From an uncultured Methylococcales bacterium (GTDB lineage Bacteria; Pseudomonadota; Gammaproteobacteria; Methylococcales; Methylomonadaceae): a stretch of 62,229 nt of DNA. Location of the stretch: assembly GCA_903902705.1 (NCBI GenBank), contig CAIUVX010000171.1:1-62229 (forward strand). The letters are read 5' to 3'. The position numbers and the translations under genes are program-made. Shown one piece after another: positions 30,085-34,884 of the stretch. Position 1 is the first letter of the stretch; every line of letters begins with the position of its first letter. The notes under the pieces are model-generated. The model was not told the DNA's origin and made no database searches. It worked only from the letters and a program-made list of their open reading frames with translations.

Positions 30085-31446
30085 ATGTTTGATAATTTAA
30101 CCGATAAATTAAGTAGCACGCTTAAAAAACTCAAAGGGCAAGGTCGCCTAACTGAAGATAATATCAAGGAAACCTTAGGCGAAGTGCGTATCGCTTTGCT
30201 GGAAGCCGATGTCTCTTTGCCCGTCGTGACGGATTTTATTGAACGTGTCAAAGAAGGCGCGTTAGGACAACAAGTTCAAAGCAGTCTCACACCTGGGCAA
30301 TCCATGATTAAACTGGTTCAAGCGGAACTGGTTAAAATGATGGGGGCGGCGAATGAAGACATTAATCTTCGCGCTGTACCACCTGCGGTTATTTTAATGG
30401 CTGGTTTGCAAGGTGCGGGTAAAACTACCACGGTTGCAAAACTGGGGTTATGGTTAAAAACCCATAAAAAGAAAAAAGTCGGTGTAGTGAGTGCGGACGT
30501 TTATCGCCCTGCGGCTATTAAACAATTGCAAGTATTAGCCAATGATCTTGATCTGGTTTTTTTCGATAGCGATTTAACTCAAAATCCTGTCGATATTGCC
30601 CTTAATGCCATTGATGCCGCGAAACGTAAATTTCTCGATGTGATTATTGTCGATACCGCAGGTCGATTGCATATTGATGACGAAATGATGGGTGAAATAA
30701 AAGCTCTTCATGCCGCGATTAATCCGATTGAAACCCTGTTCGTCGTCGATAGCATGACAGGACAAGATGCCGCGATTACCGCTAAAGCCTTTAATGATGC
30801 GCTGCCACTAACGGGCGTTATTTTAACCAAAGCCGATGGTGATGCACGCGGCGGGGCAGCGTTATCTATCCGTCATATCACAGGCAAACCGATTAAATTT
30901 ATCGGTATGGGCGAAAAACCAGATGCCTTAGAGCCATTCCATCCAGACCGTATTGCCTCGCGTATTTTGGGCATGGGCGATATGCTCAGCCTGATTGAAA
31001 CCATTGAGCAAAAAGTCGATAAAGAAAAAGCTGAAAAATTCGCCAAAAAAATTAAAAAAGGCGAATCGTTTGATATGAACGATTTTCGTGAACAATTGCA
31101 ACAAATGGAAAGCATGGGCGGTGTCAGTGCCATGCTAGACAAGCTCCCAGGTGTTGGCAATGTCTCACAAGAAATGCGTGAAAAAGTCAATGACAAAGCC
31201 TTATCGCGGCAAATTGCCATCATTAATTCCATGACCAAACAGGAAAGACGTTTCCCAGATTTGATTAAAGGCAATCGCAAAAAACGTATCGCGGATGGTT
31301 GTGGTCAAGAATTACACGATGTCAATCGTATGCTGAAGCAATTTTTGATGATGCAAAAAATGATGAAAAAAATGAAATCGGGCAATATGGCAAATATGAT
31401 GCGCGGTATTAAAAATAACGTGCGTGGCATGGGTATAAAACGATAA
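30085..31446 (+). CDS. ffh: Signal recognition particle protein Ffh
   Basis: The SRP54 GTPase that directs nascent membrane proteins to FtsY. The N domain (1-90), the G domain with GLQGAGKTT near residue 107 and DTAGR near 190, and a Met-rich M domain at the end (MMQKMMKKMKSGNMANMM) are all present. I choose ATG at 30085 (453 residues, MFDNLTDKL), the standard start; an upstream in-frame start would add 15 atypical residues. Confidence 0.97.
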   Translation: MFDNLTDKLSSTLKKLKGQGRLTEDNIKETLGEVRIALLEADVSLPVVTDFIERVKEGALGQQVQSSLTPGQSMIKLVQAELVKMMGAANEDINLRAVPPAVILMAGLQGAGKTTTVAKLGLWLKTHKKKKVGVVSADVYRPAAIKQLQVLANDLDLVFFDSDLTQNPVDIALNAIDAAKRKFLDVIIVDTAGRLHIDDEMMGEIKALHAAINPIETLFVVDSMTGQDAAITAKAFNDALPLTGVILTKADGDARGGAALSIRHITGKPIKFIGMGEKPDALEPFHPDRIASRILGMGDMLSLIETIEQKVDKEKAEKFAKKIKKGESFDMNDFREQLQQMESMGGVSAMLDKLPGVGNVSQEMREKVNDKALSRQIAIINSMTKQERRFPDLIKGNRKKRIADGCGQELHDVNRMLKQFLMMQKMMKKMKSGNMANMMRGIKNNVRGMGIKR

Positions 31447-31486
31447 CACCAAACATAAACTTTATGCGCTGTGCGCTTGAATCCAA

Positions 31487-31526
31487 GCAATAAAAAACCG
31501 CCTTTGGTTTTGACCAGAGGCGGTTT
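31487..31526. terminator. Terminator-like hairpin T1 (downstream of ffh)
   Basis: The stem AACCGCC/GGCGGTT with TTTGG/CCAGA extension forms a hairpin flanked by A and T runs on both sides. The first 28 bases (31487-31514) are repeated exactly at 32234-32261, behind vapC. It probably ends the ffh transcript. Confidence 0.8.
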
Positions 31527-31630
31527 TGTCTTAATGAACATCTTATCAAAAAATTGCTACAATATCCGAACATCTACTCACTTTGCTATACAAAGTAACA
31601 GAATTCAAACAAAGGTTATCGGAGTCCATC

Positions 31631-31846
31631 ATGGAAACGACCACAATACGCACCCAAGTTCTGCTAGATAAAGAAATACTGGAGCAGGCATTACAAATTA
31701 CCCATCTTAAAAGTAAACGTGAGTTGCTTGATTATGCGTTACGCGAATTAATCCGCCACGAAAAACAAAAAAAGTTATTGGACTTGAAAGGGACAATTTG
31801 TTGGGAAGGCGATTTGAATGCAATGCGTGAAAATAAAGCTTTATGA
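31631..31846 (+). CDS. vapB: VapB-type antitoxin
   Basis: A 71-residue ribbon-helix-helix antitoxin (TIRTQVLLDKEILEQAL) with a C-terminal toxin-wrapping tail (WEGDLNAMRENK). I choose ATG at 31631; a GGAG lies 8-10 bases upstream. The stop overlaps the vapC start by four bases. Such antitoxins bind their own promoter to autorepress the pair. Confidence 0.88.
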   Translation: METTTIRTQVLLDKEILEQALQITHLKSKRELLDYALRELIRHEKQKKLLDLKGTICWEGDLNAMRENKAL

Positions 31847-32232
31847 TTTTGGTTGATACCAGTGCGTGGATAGATTTTTTTAACGGAAAAGATTTGCCAC
31901 ACGTTGCCACGCTTGAGTTCTCAATTCAGCAAGAAGTAGATATTGCTATTTGTGGTGTGGTGCTAACAGAAGTATTACAAGGGATTTCTAACGATAAACA
32001 GCATCAGCTTACCCAAGATTATTTGCAGTCCTTATTGATGTTGGAAATAAAAGAGGGCGTGTGGTTACAAGCCGCCGATATTTATCGACAATTACGCAAA
32101 CGTGGACTGACAGTCCGCAAAACTAATGACTGTATTATTGCGGCAACTGCCTTGCATTATGGTTGTTTTCTACTCCATAACGATAAAGATTTTGCAACAA
32201 TTGAACTGCACTATCCATTGCAAACTTGTTAA
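31843..32232 (+). CDS. vapC: VapC-type PIN-domain toxin (RNase)
   Basis: A 129-residue PIN domain with D5 in ILVDTSAWIDFF, the Glu in VVLTEVLQG, the Asp in RKTNDCIIAA and the closing HNDKDF motif. It is thus a complete metal-dependent RNase set. VapC toxins usually cut tRNA or rRNA. Paired with vapB; the module is bracketed by hairpins T1 and T2. Confidence 0.92.
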   Translation: MILVDTSAWIDFFNGKDLPHVATLEFSIQQEVDIAICGVVLTEVLQGISNDKQHQLTQDYLQSLLMLEIKEGVWLQAADIYRQLRKRGLTVRKTNDCIIAATALHYGCFLLHNDKDFATIELHYPLQTC

Positions 32233-32233
32233 G

Positions 32234-32273
32234 GCAATAAAAAACCGCCTTTGGTTTTGACTGGAGGCGGTTC
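32234..32273. terminator. Terminator-like hairpin T2 (between vapC and the peptide operon)
   Basis: A second copy of the ffh-side hairpin: 28 identical bases (32234-32261), then the right arm GAGGCGGTT. On the minus strand it is followed by TTTTTTATT, so it can also end the radical SAM/peptide transcript arriving from the right. Confidence 0.8.
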
Positions 32274-32358
32274 TTTATTGGTGCTATGATGGAACTCGCT
32301 GTCGCTCTTTCCATCTTACGAGTTGCGCTTATTTCGTTTCACTCCATAAGCTCTATGG

Positions 32359-32529
32359 CTACTGCATTAGGCAGCCACAACATCCTTCATCGCTAATGCA
32401 GACACAGGAACACATTCCGTCATTGATTTCAGAGTTTTCTGAAAACTTCATGATAATCTCAGAAAGTATGCCTGTACATTCTTCTTTAATCAGCTCAAAG
32501 GTGCTAATTTCAAACGTTTCTGCTTGCAT
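32359..32529 (-). CDS. Cys-rich candidate RiPP precursor peptide (56 aa)
   Basis: A short gene with ATG at 32529 and a GGAG eight bases upstream; the ribosome site lies just behind the stop of the radical SAM gene, only 14 bases away. The N-terminal ~38 residues are acidic and helical, like a leader. The C-terminal core CSCVCISDEGCCGC holds six cysteines (40, 42, 44, 50, 51, 53), with one more at C18. A Cys-dense C-terminus next to a SPASM maturase is the pattern of thioether-forming RiPPs (sactipeptides, ranthipeptides and relatives). No transporter or protease gene is adjacent. Translation and modification are inferred, not shown. Confidence 0.72.
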   Translation of the reverse strand: MQAETFEISTFELIKEECTGILSEIIMKFSENSEINDGMCSCVCISDEGCCGCLMQ

Positions 32530-32543
32530 AATATAATCTCCAG

Positions 32544-33881
32544 TTATGGTCGAGTTAAATTAAATGTATCTTGTTTTGCTATGTCTCTATTTGACCCTGC
32601 TTCACCTCCTTTCGTTAACAACTCATTTAGCTGGTTAAACACGAGAAAACGATTAATGTCACATCTTGAATACCCTATTCTTCTAATATCTGGGCAATCG
32701 CCTGCACAATGCCATTTGGCAAAACAATGGTTACAATAATCTGGCATTTCAGTTTGAATTACATTTTCGTTTATTTTTTGTTCATCGACTGTTACGACTC
32801 CAGTATCAGTATCGACCATTCCATACACATAGTCTGTTCCATCTTGATCTCTATGGCACGCTGTTACCTTTCCATTTGTGCATACAGTAAAAGATGGCAT
32901 TGCCATTGCGCCACAATACCTTCCTACTAGCCTATCGACATTTGCTGCTGAGGTTATGACGCGCAATCCAAGCTCCTTCCCTCGATTTTTTGCTGCCAAA
33001 AAATTTATGGCGAATTCTTCGTTAGTGGGTGGCAATAATTCACCATACAAAGCCCGTCCTATTTCAATAAGTGGCTCAAATGCAATGGTATATCCAGTGC
33101 CAAACGTATTAAAATAATGCTCAACAATATCCACTAAATTTTTAACACTGTAGCTAGAAACTGTTCCCCTTAGACCAGCCTTTACTTTGTTACTATCAAT
33201 AAAAAACTTGCATGTTTCTGATACCAATGAGTAACTGCCTTTATATGCTCTTGTTGGACGATGTATGTTTTGTATTTCTTTGTATCCATCTATTGATAAT
33301 GTTAGAACGTCAAAATTATTTGCCACAAATTCACGTTTTGCATATCCATAATAACAATTGGTAGTCATAGATAAATATACCTTATTAACCCCGTCATGCT
33401 CTTTTTCTAGTTCTCGAATTCGATTTACCGTATAAGTGAATTCTTTCCAGTTCATTGTAGGTTCACCACCTACGGCAAAAGAAACACTCAATGTTTTCTT
33501 TGGTGTTTCCGCAGCTTTTTCAAAAGCATAATCAATTGATTTAGCAATCAAATCATGATTTATCGTTGTATCCCTATCCGCTTCTGCATGGCAATAGTCG
33601 CAAGCCAATGTACAATTGTTTGTTAACCCGATGGCGAGATAAAACGACTTAGGGCGTTCAATAATAGGGAAAATTGGATGTTCACTTTGTCTCTCCAGCC
33701 TTGCAAGTAGTTGATCTGGTAATACACTATTCAATAATATAGAGCTACCTAAATTGCCTGTTAGCTTCAAAGCTAGACGAAGTGTTGGCGCATAGAATAT
33801 ATATTCGGCAGATAATCCGTTGTTGAGCAAATACCAGTCATATCCCTTCCATATTCCGTATCTGTATTTTATATCAAGCAT
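32544..33881 (-). CDS. Radical SAM/SPASM peptide maturase
   Basis: A 445-residue radical SAM enzyme. The SAM-cluster motif is C90xxxC94xxC97 (NNCTLACDYCHAE), and VGGEP is at 137-141. A SPASM domain holds two more Fe-S clusters, with cysteines at 323, 334, 342, 383, 386, 392, 396 and 407. The ~80 residues before the radical SAM core could be a peptide-recognition region. The 56-residue Cys-rich gene follows 14 bases downstream, so the pair is most likely enzyme and substrate. It is divergent from a broken XRE regulator. Confidence 0.9.
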   Translation of the reverse strand: MLDIKYRYGIWKGYDWYLLNNGLSAEYIFYAPTLRLALKLTGNLGSSILLNSVLPDQLLARLERQSEHPIFPIIERPKSFYLAIGLTNNCTLACDYCHAEADRDTTINHDLIAKSIDYAFEKAAETPKKTLSVSFAVGGEPTMNWKEFTYTVNRIRELEKEHDGVNKVYLSMTTNCYYGYAKREFVANNFDVLTLSIDGYKEIQNIHRPTRAYKGSYSLVSETCKFFIDSNKVKAGLRGTVSSYSVKNLVDIVEHYFNTFGTGYTIAFEPLIEIGRALYGELLPPTNEEFAINFLAAKNRGKELGLRVITSAANVDRLVGRYCGAMAMPSFTVCTNGKVTACHRDQDGTDYVYGMVDTDTGVVTVDEQKINENVIQTEMPDYCNHCFAKWHCAGDCPDIRRIGYSRCDINRFLVFNQLNELLTKGGEAGSNRDIAKQDTFNLTRP

Positions 33882-34025
33882 TTTGACTCCTCTATCATCG
33901 TGATGACACTAACCCGACATTTAACTCTGAAATGTATGTTAAAAAAGCGTATACAAAATTTTAAACCCTTGCCAAACCTGCTACAATCAGGAAAATCAGG
34001 TATTTTCTGTGATAGAGAGGTATTT

Positions 34026-34442
34026 ATGTCGGTCAATGAAAAAATAAGGTCAATTCGTGAAGCGAAAGGTTTAACGCAAGAGCAAGTTGCTGAAAAATCA
34101 GGTATATCAGCGAGTGTTTACGGTGATATTGAACGTGGTGAAAATGACCCAAAACTGTCAAAATTGCAAAAAATAGCCTAAGCCTTTGAAATTCAACTGT
34201 CTGAATTAGTTGATTTAAGCGATAAAGGAAATCTAAATGTTAGCTTTGCTCATCAACGCAATACCAATACAACTCACCAAAATCATGTTTATGTTGGTTC
34301 GTGTGCTACTGAATTAAAAGAACAGAAACTGATTAATGAATTAAAAGACAAAGAACTTGCCATGAAAGACAGGGAAAATGACAACTTAAGAGAAATCATT
34401 GCCTTGTTGAAAAGAGAACTACCCCAGCCTAAGCCGATTTAA
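34026..34442 (+). pseudogene. XRE-family regulator broken by a nonsense codon
   Basis: ATG at 34026 follows GAGAGG. The helix-turn-helix domain runs through residues 1-51 (LTQEQVAEKSGISASVYGDIERG). A TAA at 34179-34181 then interrupts it, exactly where the family has a KIAxAFEI sequence, so a single change from CAA, GAA or AAA explains it. The frame continues for 87 more codons (a Leu/Lys/Glu-rich coiled-coil tail) to TAA at 34440. It lies divergent from the radical SAM/peptide operon and may once have controlled it. A 51-residue truncated product could still be made. Confidence 0.8.
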
Positions 34443-34632
34443 ACAGCACAAAAAAACACGCAAACACGACAAAACGAACGCAAAAGATAGACTGAAATGT
34501 ACAAAGCCTATCTTGCTAATCTTTTCCTACCTTCATAAACAATCCTTGATTTTTTAATTTGTTCTTCACTTATCAATAAAATCGCGTAGAATAGGCGGAT
34601 TAACAATGACCAAATATTTTTGAGGATATTAG

Positions 34633-34884
34633 ATGGTAACTATTCGTCTTTCAAGAGGTGGTGCTAAAAATCACCCCTTCTACCAAATTGTAGTAACTGA
34701 TAGTCGTAGCGGTCGTGATGGTCGTTATATTGAGCGCGTTGGTTTTTTTAACCCATTAGCTCGTGGCAATGAAGAAAAATTACGTTTAGACAGCGAACGC
34801 GTTGAATATTGGAAAACCAAAGGCGCACAAACGTCTGAGCGCGTTGCCCAATTGATTAAAGTCGCTAAAAAAGCTGCTGTGTAA
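34633..34884 (+). CDS. rpsP: 30S ribosomal protein S16
   Basis: An 83-residue protein with the S16 start [20 protein letters not shown] and [13 protein letters not shown]. It is first of the rpsP-rimM-trmD-rplS operon. GAGGATATT precedes the ATG. The 190-bp leader holds no other gene. Confidence 0.98.

Follow-up and report, generated by a model that had tools for sequence, protein, structure and literature searches.

SCIFF systems, with their CteB/ScfB-type maturases, have the same two-gene setting as the pair of genes described here, and it has been proposed for them that the product stays intracellular or is trimmed by general proteases. In the freyrasin system (PapA/PapB), a ranthipeptide, the maturase PapB acts on Cys-x3-Asp/Glu, where it joins the Cys thiol to the β carbon (Asp) or the γ carbon (Glu), and it also accepts other spacings (PMC9413430). 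CteB links Cys to Thr (in the passage concerned of PMC8326336), and QhpD, the quinohemoprotein amine dehydrogenase maturase, makes S-C(β) or S-C(γ) links to Asp/Glu (passages of PMC8326336 and PMC10352776). The number of SPASM cysteines given for QhpD, CteB and Tte1186 in the corresponding passage of PMC10352776 is seven.

The window, by which we mean the whole stretch of 62,229 nucleotides analysed from an uncultured Methylococcales bacterium, carries a radical SAM/SPASM enzyme gene and, directly behind it, a gene for the 56-residue peptide MQAETFEISTFELIKEECTGILSEIIMKFSENSEINDGMCSCVCISDEGCCGCLMQ (Table 1). The two products are very probably a maturase and its precursor, and we regard as probable the fuller reading of a stand-alone two-gene RiPP cassette in which a Cys44-Glu48 bond is the likeliest thioether. 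The original prediction, made from the letters of the DNA, had announced a hidden Cys-rich frame with a ribosome site just after the maturase stop and an acidic leader-like half. All of this is borne out: the frame is real and intact, the 14 nt between the TAA of the enzyme gene and the ATG of the peptide gene contain the GGAG, and residues 1-38 hold 9 Asp/Glu and 2 Lys/Arg. The cysteines occupy positions 18, 40, 42, 44, 50, 51 and 53. Richness in cysteine is unremarkable by itself, at least six cysteines in the last 20 residues being found in 3 of the 424 window ORFs of 30-120 residues; the peptide stands above chance because its ribosome site lies directly behind the enzyme and because the pair is conserved elsewhere. 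Neither NCBIfam nor Pfam has a model that the peptide matches (none of NCBIfam at E ≤10, nor the SCIFF-precursor model at E ≤1), the peptides of its three planctomycete counterparts have no NCBIfam match at E ≤1, and a second copy was not found in the window's genome.

Table 1. Features of the locus, in window coordinates, and related precursors at other loci, in the coordinates of those loci.
Feature	Position	Strand	Basis or remark
Accessory insertion between ffh and rpsP: vapBC, RiPP pair, broken XRE-type regulator frame	31447..34632	(.)	3186 bp vs 99-128 bp in 5/7 congeneric genomes
Hairpin where the peptide gene and vapC converge	32243..32272	(.)	Terminator scan (listed as +) and sequence
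Precursor peptide, 56 aa; leader ~1-38, core ~39-56 (C40 C42 C44 E48 C50 C51 C53)	32359..32529	(-)	ORF, ribosome site, homologues beside homologous enzymes, profile and shuffle tests
GGAG (Shine-Dalgarno) 8 nt before the peptide ATG	32538..32541	(-)	Read from sequence
Radical SAM/SPASM peptide maturase, intact, 445 aa	32544..33881	(-)	ORF and Cys positions
Maturase domains: RRE-like N-terminal ~1-70; radical SAM barrel C90/C94/C97; SPASM C323, C342, C383, C386, C392, C396, C407			
CSCNCN-type precursors	L137:4516-4707, L139:6049-6276, L140:3967-4158, L147:6295-6516, L284:2537-2725		Core C-x-R-I-S/N-x-C-x-C-x-C-N

GTDB species genomes were searched with a five-row enzyme alignment and the best 80 of at least 589 stretches were kept; as this number is a lower bound, more family members may exist. 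The top relative among the matches listed belongs to a Ca. Brocadiaceae metagenome-assembled genome of the Planctomycetota (locus L136, genome G597), with an enzyme 42% identical by tblastn. In the order of this planctomycete, the window enzyme has matches at E ≤1e-12 in 7 of 62 genomes, and the strong ones are three: G597, G629 (8.4e-80; locus L218) and G625 (1.9e-59; locus L219). The enzymes of G597 and G629 are 40-43% identical to that of the window over the aligned part. A peptide ending GCTCIAYEKCCGCFIQ lies behind the enzyme in G597, where a second copy, with a stop inside the core region, precedes it; in G629 the peptide is upstream of the enzyme and ends GCTCIAYEKCCGCLIQ. The shared core pattern is C-x-C-I-x-x-E-x-C-C-G-C-x-x-Q, a patch of the leader, F-x-E-N-x3-N-D, is conserved as well, and C42, C44, I45, E48 and C50 are invariant in the four-row peptide alignment. 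The G625 enzyme is intact and 31% identical; directly behind it comes a 56-residue Cys-rich peptide, with AAGGAGG before its start and a different core devoid of Cys-x3-Glu. A model of the four-row peptide alignment retrieves peptides from 2 of the 62 genomes of the order, G597 and G629, and not from G625.

The relation between the peptides was also measured without the window's contribution. A profile of the three planctomycete peptides, the window being excluded, gives the window peptide the top rank among 483 window ORFs with an E of 1.1e-4, the next standing at 1.2. Its score is reached by none of 3000 shuffles of the whole peptide and none of 3000 shuffles of both halves. When the leader is kept and the core alone is shuffled, it is reached by 2 of 3000 (24 with composition correction), and when the core is kept and the leader shuffled, by 12 of 3000 (56 with correction), so that leader and core both carry signal, which is partly one of composition; the correction takes away 11 of its 28 bits. 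Among the 240 ORFs of at least 50 residues around the four loci, blastp connects the window peptide to those of G629 (E 4.7e-6) and G597 (E 2.3e-5), and the enzyme and the peptide are the only ones of 82 window ORFs (22500-43900) to match the three other loci at E 1e-3. Between the peptide genes of G597 and G629, codon positions 1, 2 and 3 show 12, 7 and 29 differences (dN 0.18, dS saturated), a pattern which indicates that they are kept as protein.

The original prediction had staked itself on the conservation of the peptide beside homologues of the enzyme. This conservation is found at the two closest homologues, L136 and L218, where nothing else is common with the window; at the third, L219, a Cys-rich peptide is similarly placed, but the peptide-family model recognises no similarity in its sequence. 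The mark of a RiPP pair, a precursor conserved beside its maturase, is present in two further genomes with a recognisable peptide. At the level of sequence, it is established that the product of the small gene is conserved with an intact radical SAM/SPASM enzyme across phyla, and these peptides probably represent a new family of enzymatically cross-linked peptides.

A tree of 83 enzymes (82 different), for which 80 loci were picked by similarity to the window, unites the window, L136 and L218 in one clade (support 100/98), which is joined by the long-branched L219 and by the CSCNCN group formed by L137, L139, L140 and L147 (support 100/99). Since the loci were chosen by likeness to the window and PapB and CteB are absent, the tree is silent on these two enzymes. 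G179, a candidate for a close relative in the window's own order, was rejected: it falls in another clade and lies beside a WD40-like repeat protein, without a Cys-rich peptide. The CSCNCN loci, to which the viral L284 is to be added, resemble the window by their sister enzyme clade (for the four loci of the tree) and by a peptide gene that adjoins the enzyme, whereas their core lacks Cys-x3-Glu. They come from Verrucomicrobia, Bacteroidales, an uncultured bacterium and a viral contig, and a smaller radical SAM-like gene is located upstream in L137 and L140.

The mechanism we propose begins with the binding of the acidic leader (about residues 1-38) by the RRE-like N-terminal domain. The radical SAM cluster would generate the 5'-deoxyadenosyl radical, which would abstract a side-chain hydrogen from the acceptor residue of the core, and a Cys thiolate would add to the acceptor carbon with the help of the auxiliary SPASM clusters. 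The likeliest link would run from the sulfur of Cys44 to the γ-carbon of Glu48, with a loss of 2 Da, while Cys40, 42, 50, 51 and 53 would be free, paired in disulfides, bound to metal or engaged in further links. The product may stay intracellular or be trimmed by general proteases. Cys44-Glu48 is predicted because both residues are invariant in the four-row alignment and because PapB uses Cys-x3-Asp/Glu; each of the three related peptides that are intact, wholly or in part, contains Cys-x3-Glu. That the thioether is formed on a non-α carbon seems to us rather likely, the specific bond between Cys44 and Glu48 is put forward tentatively, and a link from C44 to Asp47, a position held by Tyr in the other peptides, is possible in the window peptide. 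The statement of the original prediction that the core spacing fits no class nameable with certainty has to be relaxed: the core has one Cys-x3-Glu, which is the PapB spacing, and this allows a more specific name for the likely chemistry.

Could the same pair make thioethers on α-carbons, as in sactipeptides, or join Cys to side chains other than carboxylates? CteB, the nearest solved relative, joins Cys to Thr (same passage of PMC8326336), and the cores of the CSCNCN precursors of L137, L139, L140 and L147 have Arg, Ile, Ser and Asn without any Asp/Glu, so that the enzymes of this wider group do not require a carboxylate as acceptor. The window core, however, has no Thr, and E48 is its sole invariant non-Cys polar residue in the four-row alignment; we consider such products unlikely for the window peptide and retain Cys44-Glu48 as the preferred link.

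The enzyme exceeds the Pfam cut-off for Radical_SAM (41.6 against 29.5 bits) and has the expected CxxxCxxC motif (C90-x3-C94-x2-C97, read from the ORF). Eight further SPASM cysteines had been announced and eight are indeed counted (323, 334, 342, 383, 386, 392, 396 and 407), but only seven of them, all except residue 334, are invariant or reach 90% conservation in the alignment of 52 relatives; seven is the number found in QhpD, CteB and Tte1186. Among the NCBIfam models, that of PapB (NF047865) gives the top score, 120.7 bits over residues 82-400 for a cut-off of 340; the SCIFF maturase (TIGR03974), QhpD (TIGR03906) and the anaerobic sulfatase maturase (TIGR03942) models give 89.2, 68.8 and 53.8 bits for cut-offs of 425, 453 and 349, and no cut-off is reached among the best 25 of the 55 families with E ≤10. 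The relatives L218, L219, L137, L139, L140 and L147 score 87.9-130.1 bits with the PapB model. The solved sequence nearest to the enzyme is that of CteB (5wgg, E 1.3e-14). In the AlphaFold2 model computed from the 52-row alignment (pLDDT 88.4, pTM 0.89), residues 5-65, before the barrel, form strands and helices, and the top Foldseek match is CteB (5why, E 3.0e-18). VIA-align superimposes 373 residues of CteB 5why on model residues 13-423 (Z 30.9) and, at the same level, 343 residues of anSME 4k36 on residues 78-445 (Z 31.1); within its best ten rows, the N-terminal part is covered only by CteB and, lower, by TigE 8vpo (Z 24.6, model 9-426). The predicted fold of the maturase matches that of CteB, the putative leader-binding domain included, and the association of radical SAM, SPASM and a CteB-like N-terminal domain with a predicted leader-binding function is the architecture of the ranthipeptide class.

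The original prediction would also have suffered from an enzyme belonging to a family with a known non-peptide substrate. The best NCBIfam scores, all below the cut-offs, are those of the peptide maturases PapB and SCIFF, and CteB is spanned together with its leader-binding domain; the assignment as a peptide maturase is nevertheless not proof, because anSME fits the catalytic part about equally well. The tie between anSME and CteB and the sub-cut-off score of the sulfatase maturase model would suit another radical chemistry on the peptide, such as the Cys oxidation of sulfatase maturases, epimerisation or C-C links, which we judge improbable, as anSME leaves the N-terminal domain uncovered and scores 67 bits under PapB.

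The thioether-forming maturase that we favour can be set beside the described systems as follows. Like PapA/PapB, the window peptide has a Cys-x3-Glu compatible with the Cys-x3-Asp/Glu described for PapB in PMC9413430, but a single one (C44-E48) in place of six Cys-x3-Asp, and the top score of its enzyme remains far from the curated PapB cut-off. With the SCIFF systems the pair shares the succession of RRE, radical SAM and SPASM domains, the nearest solved structure and seven cysteines in the peptide, from which it departs by the sub-cut-off score, by the crowding of six cysteines into the last 14 residues and by a host outside the Clostridia. The seven SPASM cysteines are common to QhpD and the window enzyme (PMC10352776, in the passage on these residues), but the QhpD cut-off is distant and no genes of such a dehydrogenase were seen beside the pair when the ORFs were read by eye. 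These comparisons support the view that the pair is most like the ranthipeptide systems in architecture and is, by the curated cut-offs, a member of neither PapB nor SCIFF.

As foreseen, no transporter, protease or second enzyme adjoins the pair. Between ffh and the pair lie genes resembling VapB/VapC (Pfam), and between the pair and rpsP a regulator-like frame interrupted by an in-frame stop; ffh, this frame and rpsP were read from the ORFs. When 10 proteins encoded near the pair at the three planctomycete loci were scanned with Pfam, none matched a transporter or peptidase model at E 1e-3. The only C39 peptidase domain of the window's genome belongs to a stand-alone protein of 263 residues, which was rejected as a bacteriocin exporter on that ground. 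The surroundings of rpsP differ in the two remaining congeners: adjoining it, G006 has a regulator 57% identical to the frame of the window and a toxin-antitoxin-like pair, and G007 has signalling-type genes (functions read from the sequence), ffh not being seen in the stretches read of these two genomes. The site is therefore variable, and the RiPP pair is an accessory insertion with vapBC. The XRE-type frame (34026-34440), at the same site as its G006 counterpart, is divergent from the enzyme gene and is interrupted by a TAA. The pair has a GC content of 0.34-0.41, slightly below that of the flanking core genes, and Rfam has no match within 31400-34700. Six T follow the reverse complement of the hairpin between the peptide gene and vapC on the (-) strand, and this hairpin may terminate both convergent transcripts. 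A terminator-like palindrome situated after ffh (31487-31532) recurs, 89% identical, after vapC (32234-32279), and the two copies flank the toxin-antitoxin pair.

The known members are three or four. Enzymes of the window clade or of its neighbour G625 are present in 3 of the 62 genomes of the planctomycete order, and such a locus in 1 of 311 genomes of the window's order; phylum-wide, over 398 genomes, the window's own genome alone matched the enzyme at E ≤1e-15. The enzyme alignment finds 7 of 392 planctomycete genomes at E ≤1e-40, including G597, G629 and G625. The L136 enzyme is interrupted in the assembly, being split over two frames, and that of L218 stops after query position 348, before the last SPASM cysteines, its remainder not being found. 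As both sister enzymes and one G597 peptide copy are interrupted, the cause may be either decay of the cassette or faults in the assemblies. A rival reading takes the small ORF for a frame that is decayed or due to chance, with some other protein as the substrate of the enzyme, or the whole island for a relic; it would agree with the broken enzymes of the two closest relatives, the stop in the adjoining regulator frame and the absence of the insertion from 5 of 7 congeners, but is very improbable in view of the intact window enzyme and peptide with their good ribosome site, the leader and core conserved across phyla, and the selection pattern by codon position between the G597 and G629 peptides.

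The precursor-maturase pair that we prefer is a new variant within the ranthipeptide-like kind already known. Its precursor family has no name in the protein-family libraries scanned, and its maturase clade lies outside the PapB and SCIFF families as curated. Among the open-access papers listed by our searches, none describes this enzyme-peptide pair, to judge by titles and the openings of abstracts, and the words 'ranthipeptide' and 'radical SAM' are absent from the main text of a survey of methanotroph metabolites (PMC11964084). Our proposal offers a concrete prediction, the 2-Da loss at Cys44-Glu48, and if the chemistry were confirmed, thioether stapling could gain a new enzyme-substrate pair, the 56-residue substrate being small enough for this use. 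As the loci have no exporter or protease in common, the pair is a good case for asking what minimal SCIFF-like cassettes do. Could its product be a small intracellular redox or metal cofactor, common to a gammaproteobacterium of a methanotroph family and to Brocadiales planctomycetes? In this scenario, which we regard as a long shot, the Cys44-Glu48 thioether would staple the C-x-C...C-C-G-C head, whose five free thiolates would bind a metal ion or cluster, and the horizontally moved genes would provide assembly by one enzyme without export.

Beyond the window clade, a Cys-rich neighbour (same strand, at most 200 residues, at least six Cys, C-x-C, within 500 bp) accompanies the enzyme at 43 of 79 loci, among the best 80 of at least 589 stretches, against 26 of 335 control ORFs from the same loci; such a neighbour is thus common in the enzyme group and not universal. 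At 26 of the 79 loci (L138, L141-L146, L153, L155-L157, L160, L162, L173, L174, L176, L178-L180, L186, L189, L194, L197, L202, L211 and L215; hosts in Coriobacteria, Clostridiales, Tannerellaceae, Desulfobacterales and others), the leader of the precursors has a motif resembling KPGMKTYF or RPGLETFF, the core consists of C-x-C repeats and the end resembles CACVPVH or CRCAPVH; for the precursors of L143 and L153, neither NCBIfam nor Pfam gave a matching family at E 1. In G629, a Cas6-family endoribonuclease gene (L286:1871-2857; Pfam 67.2 bits) is located about 0.6 kb upstream of the peptide gene.

Plasmid and phage records contain no match to the G629 peptide at E 1. The enzyme relatives found on plasmids (Salmonella India, Edwardsiella, Caballeronia) were set aside as different systems, their peptides being unrelated. 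In L052 and L053 (plasmids of Salmonella India and Edwardsiella tarda), a maturase, a small peptide with FISTDEDEQEGNFEFLCCRGG, an ABC transporter and an S8 peptidase stand in a row, and the Erwinia enzyme L172 groups with these enzymes in the tree; in L051 (Caballeronia plasmid), a related enzyme is followed by a precursor with CSCNKESGCACVGHERCVC and, as read by eye, a Tat-like signal. In IMG/VR, a search with the single enzyme sequence gave 5 pattern stretches and no relative, the core used as a DNA pattern gave 30 stretches, none with an enzyme relative by tblastn, and a search with the A4 enzyme alignment yielded a single relative, the CSCNCN-type L284. Four IMG/VR contigs classed as viral (L056, L057, L062 and L065) carry SPASM radical SAM enzymes adjoining ORFs of CxxC/CxC repeats with up to 82 Cys, possibly in tail-gene surroundings.
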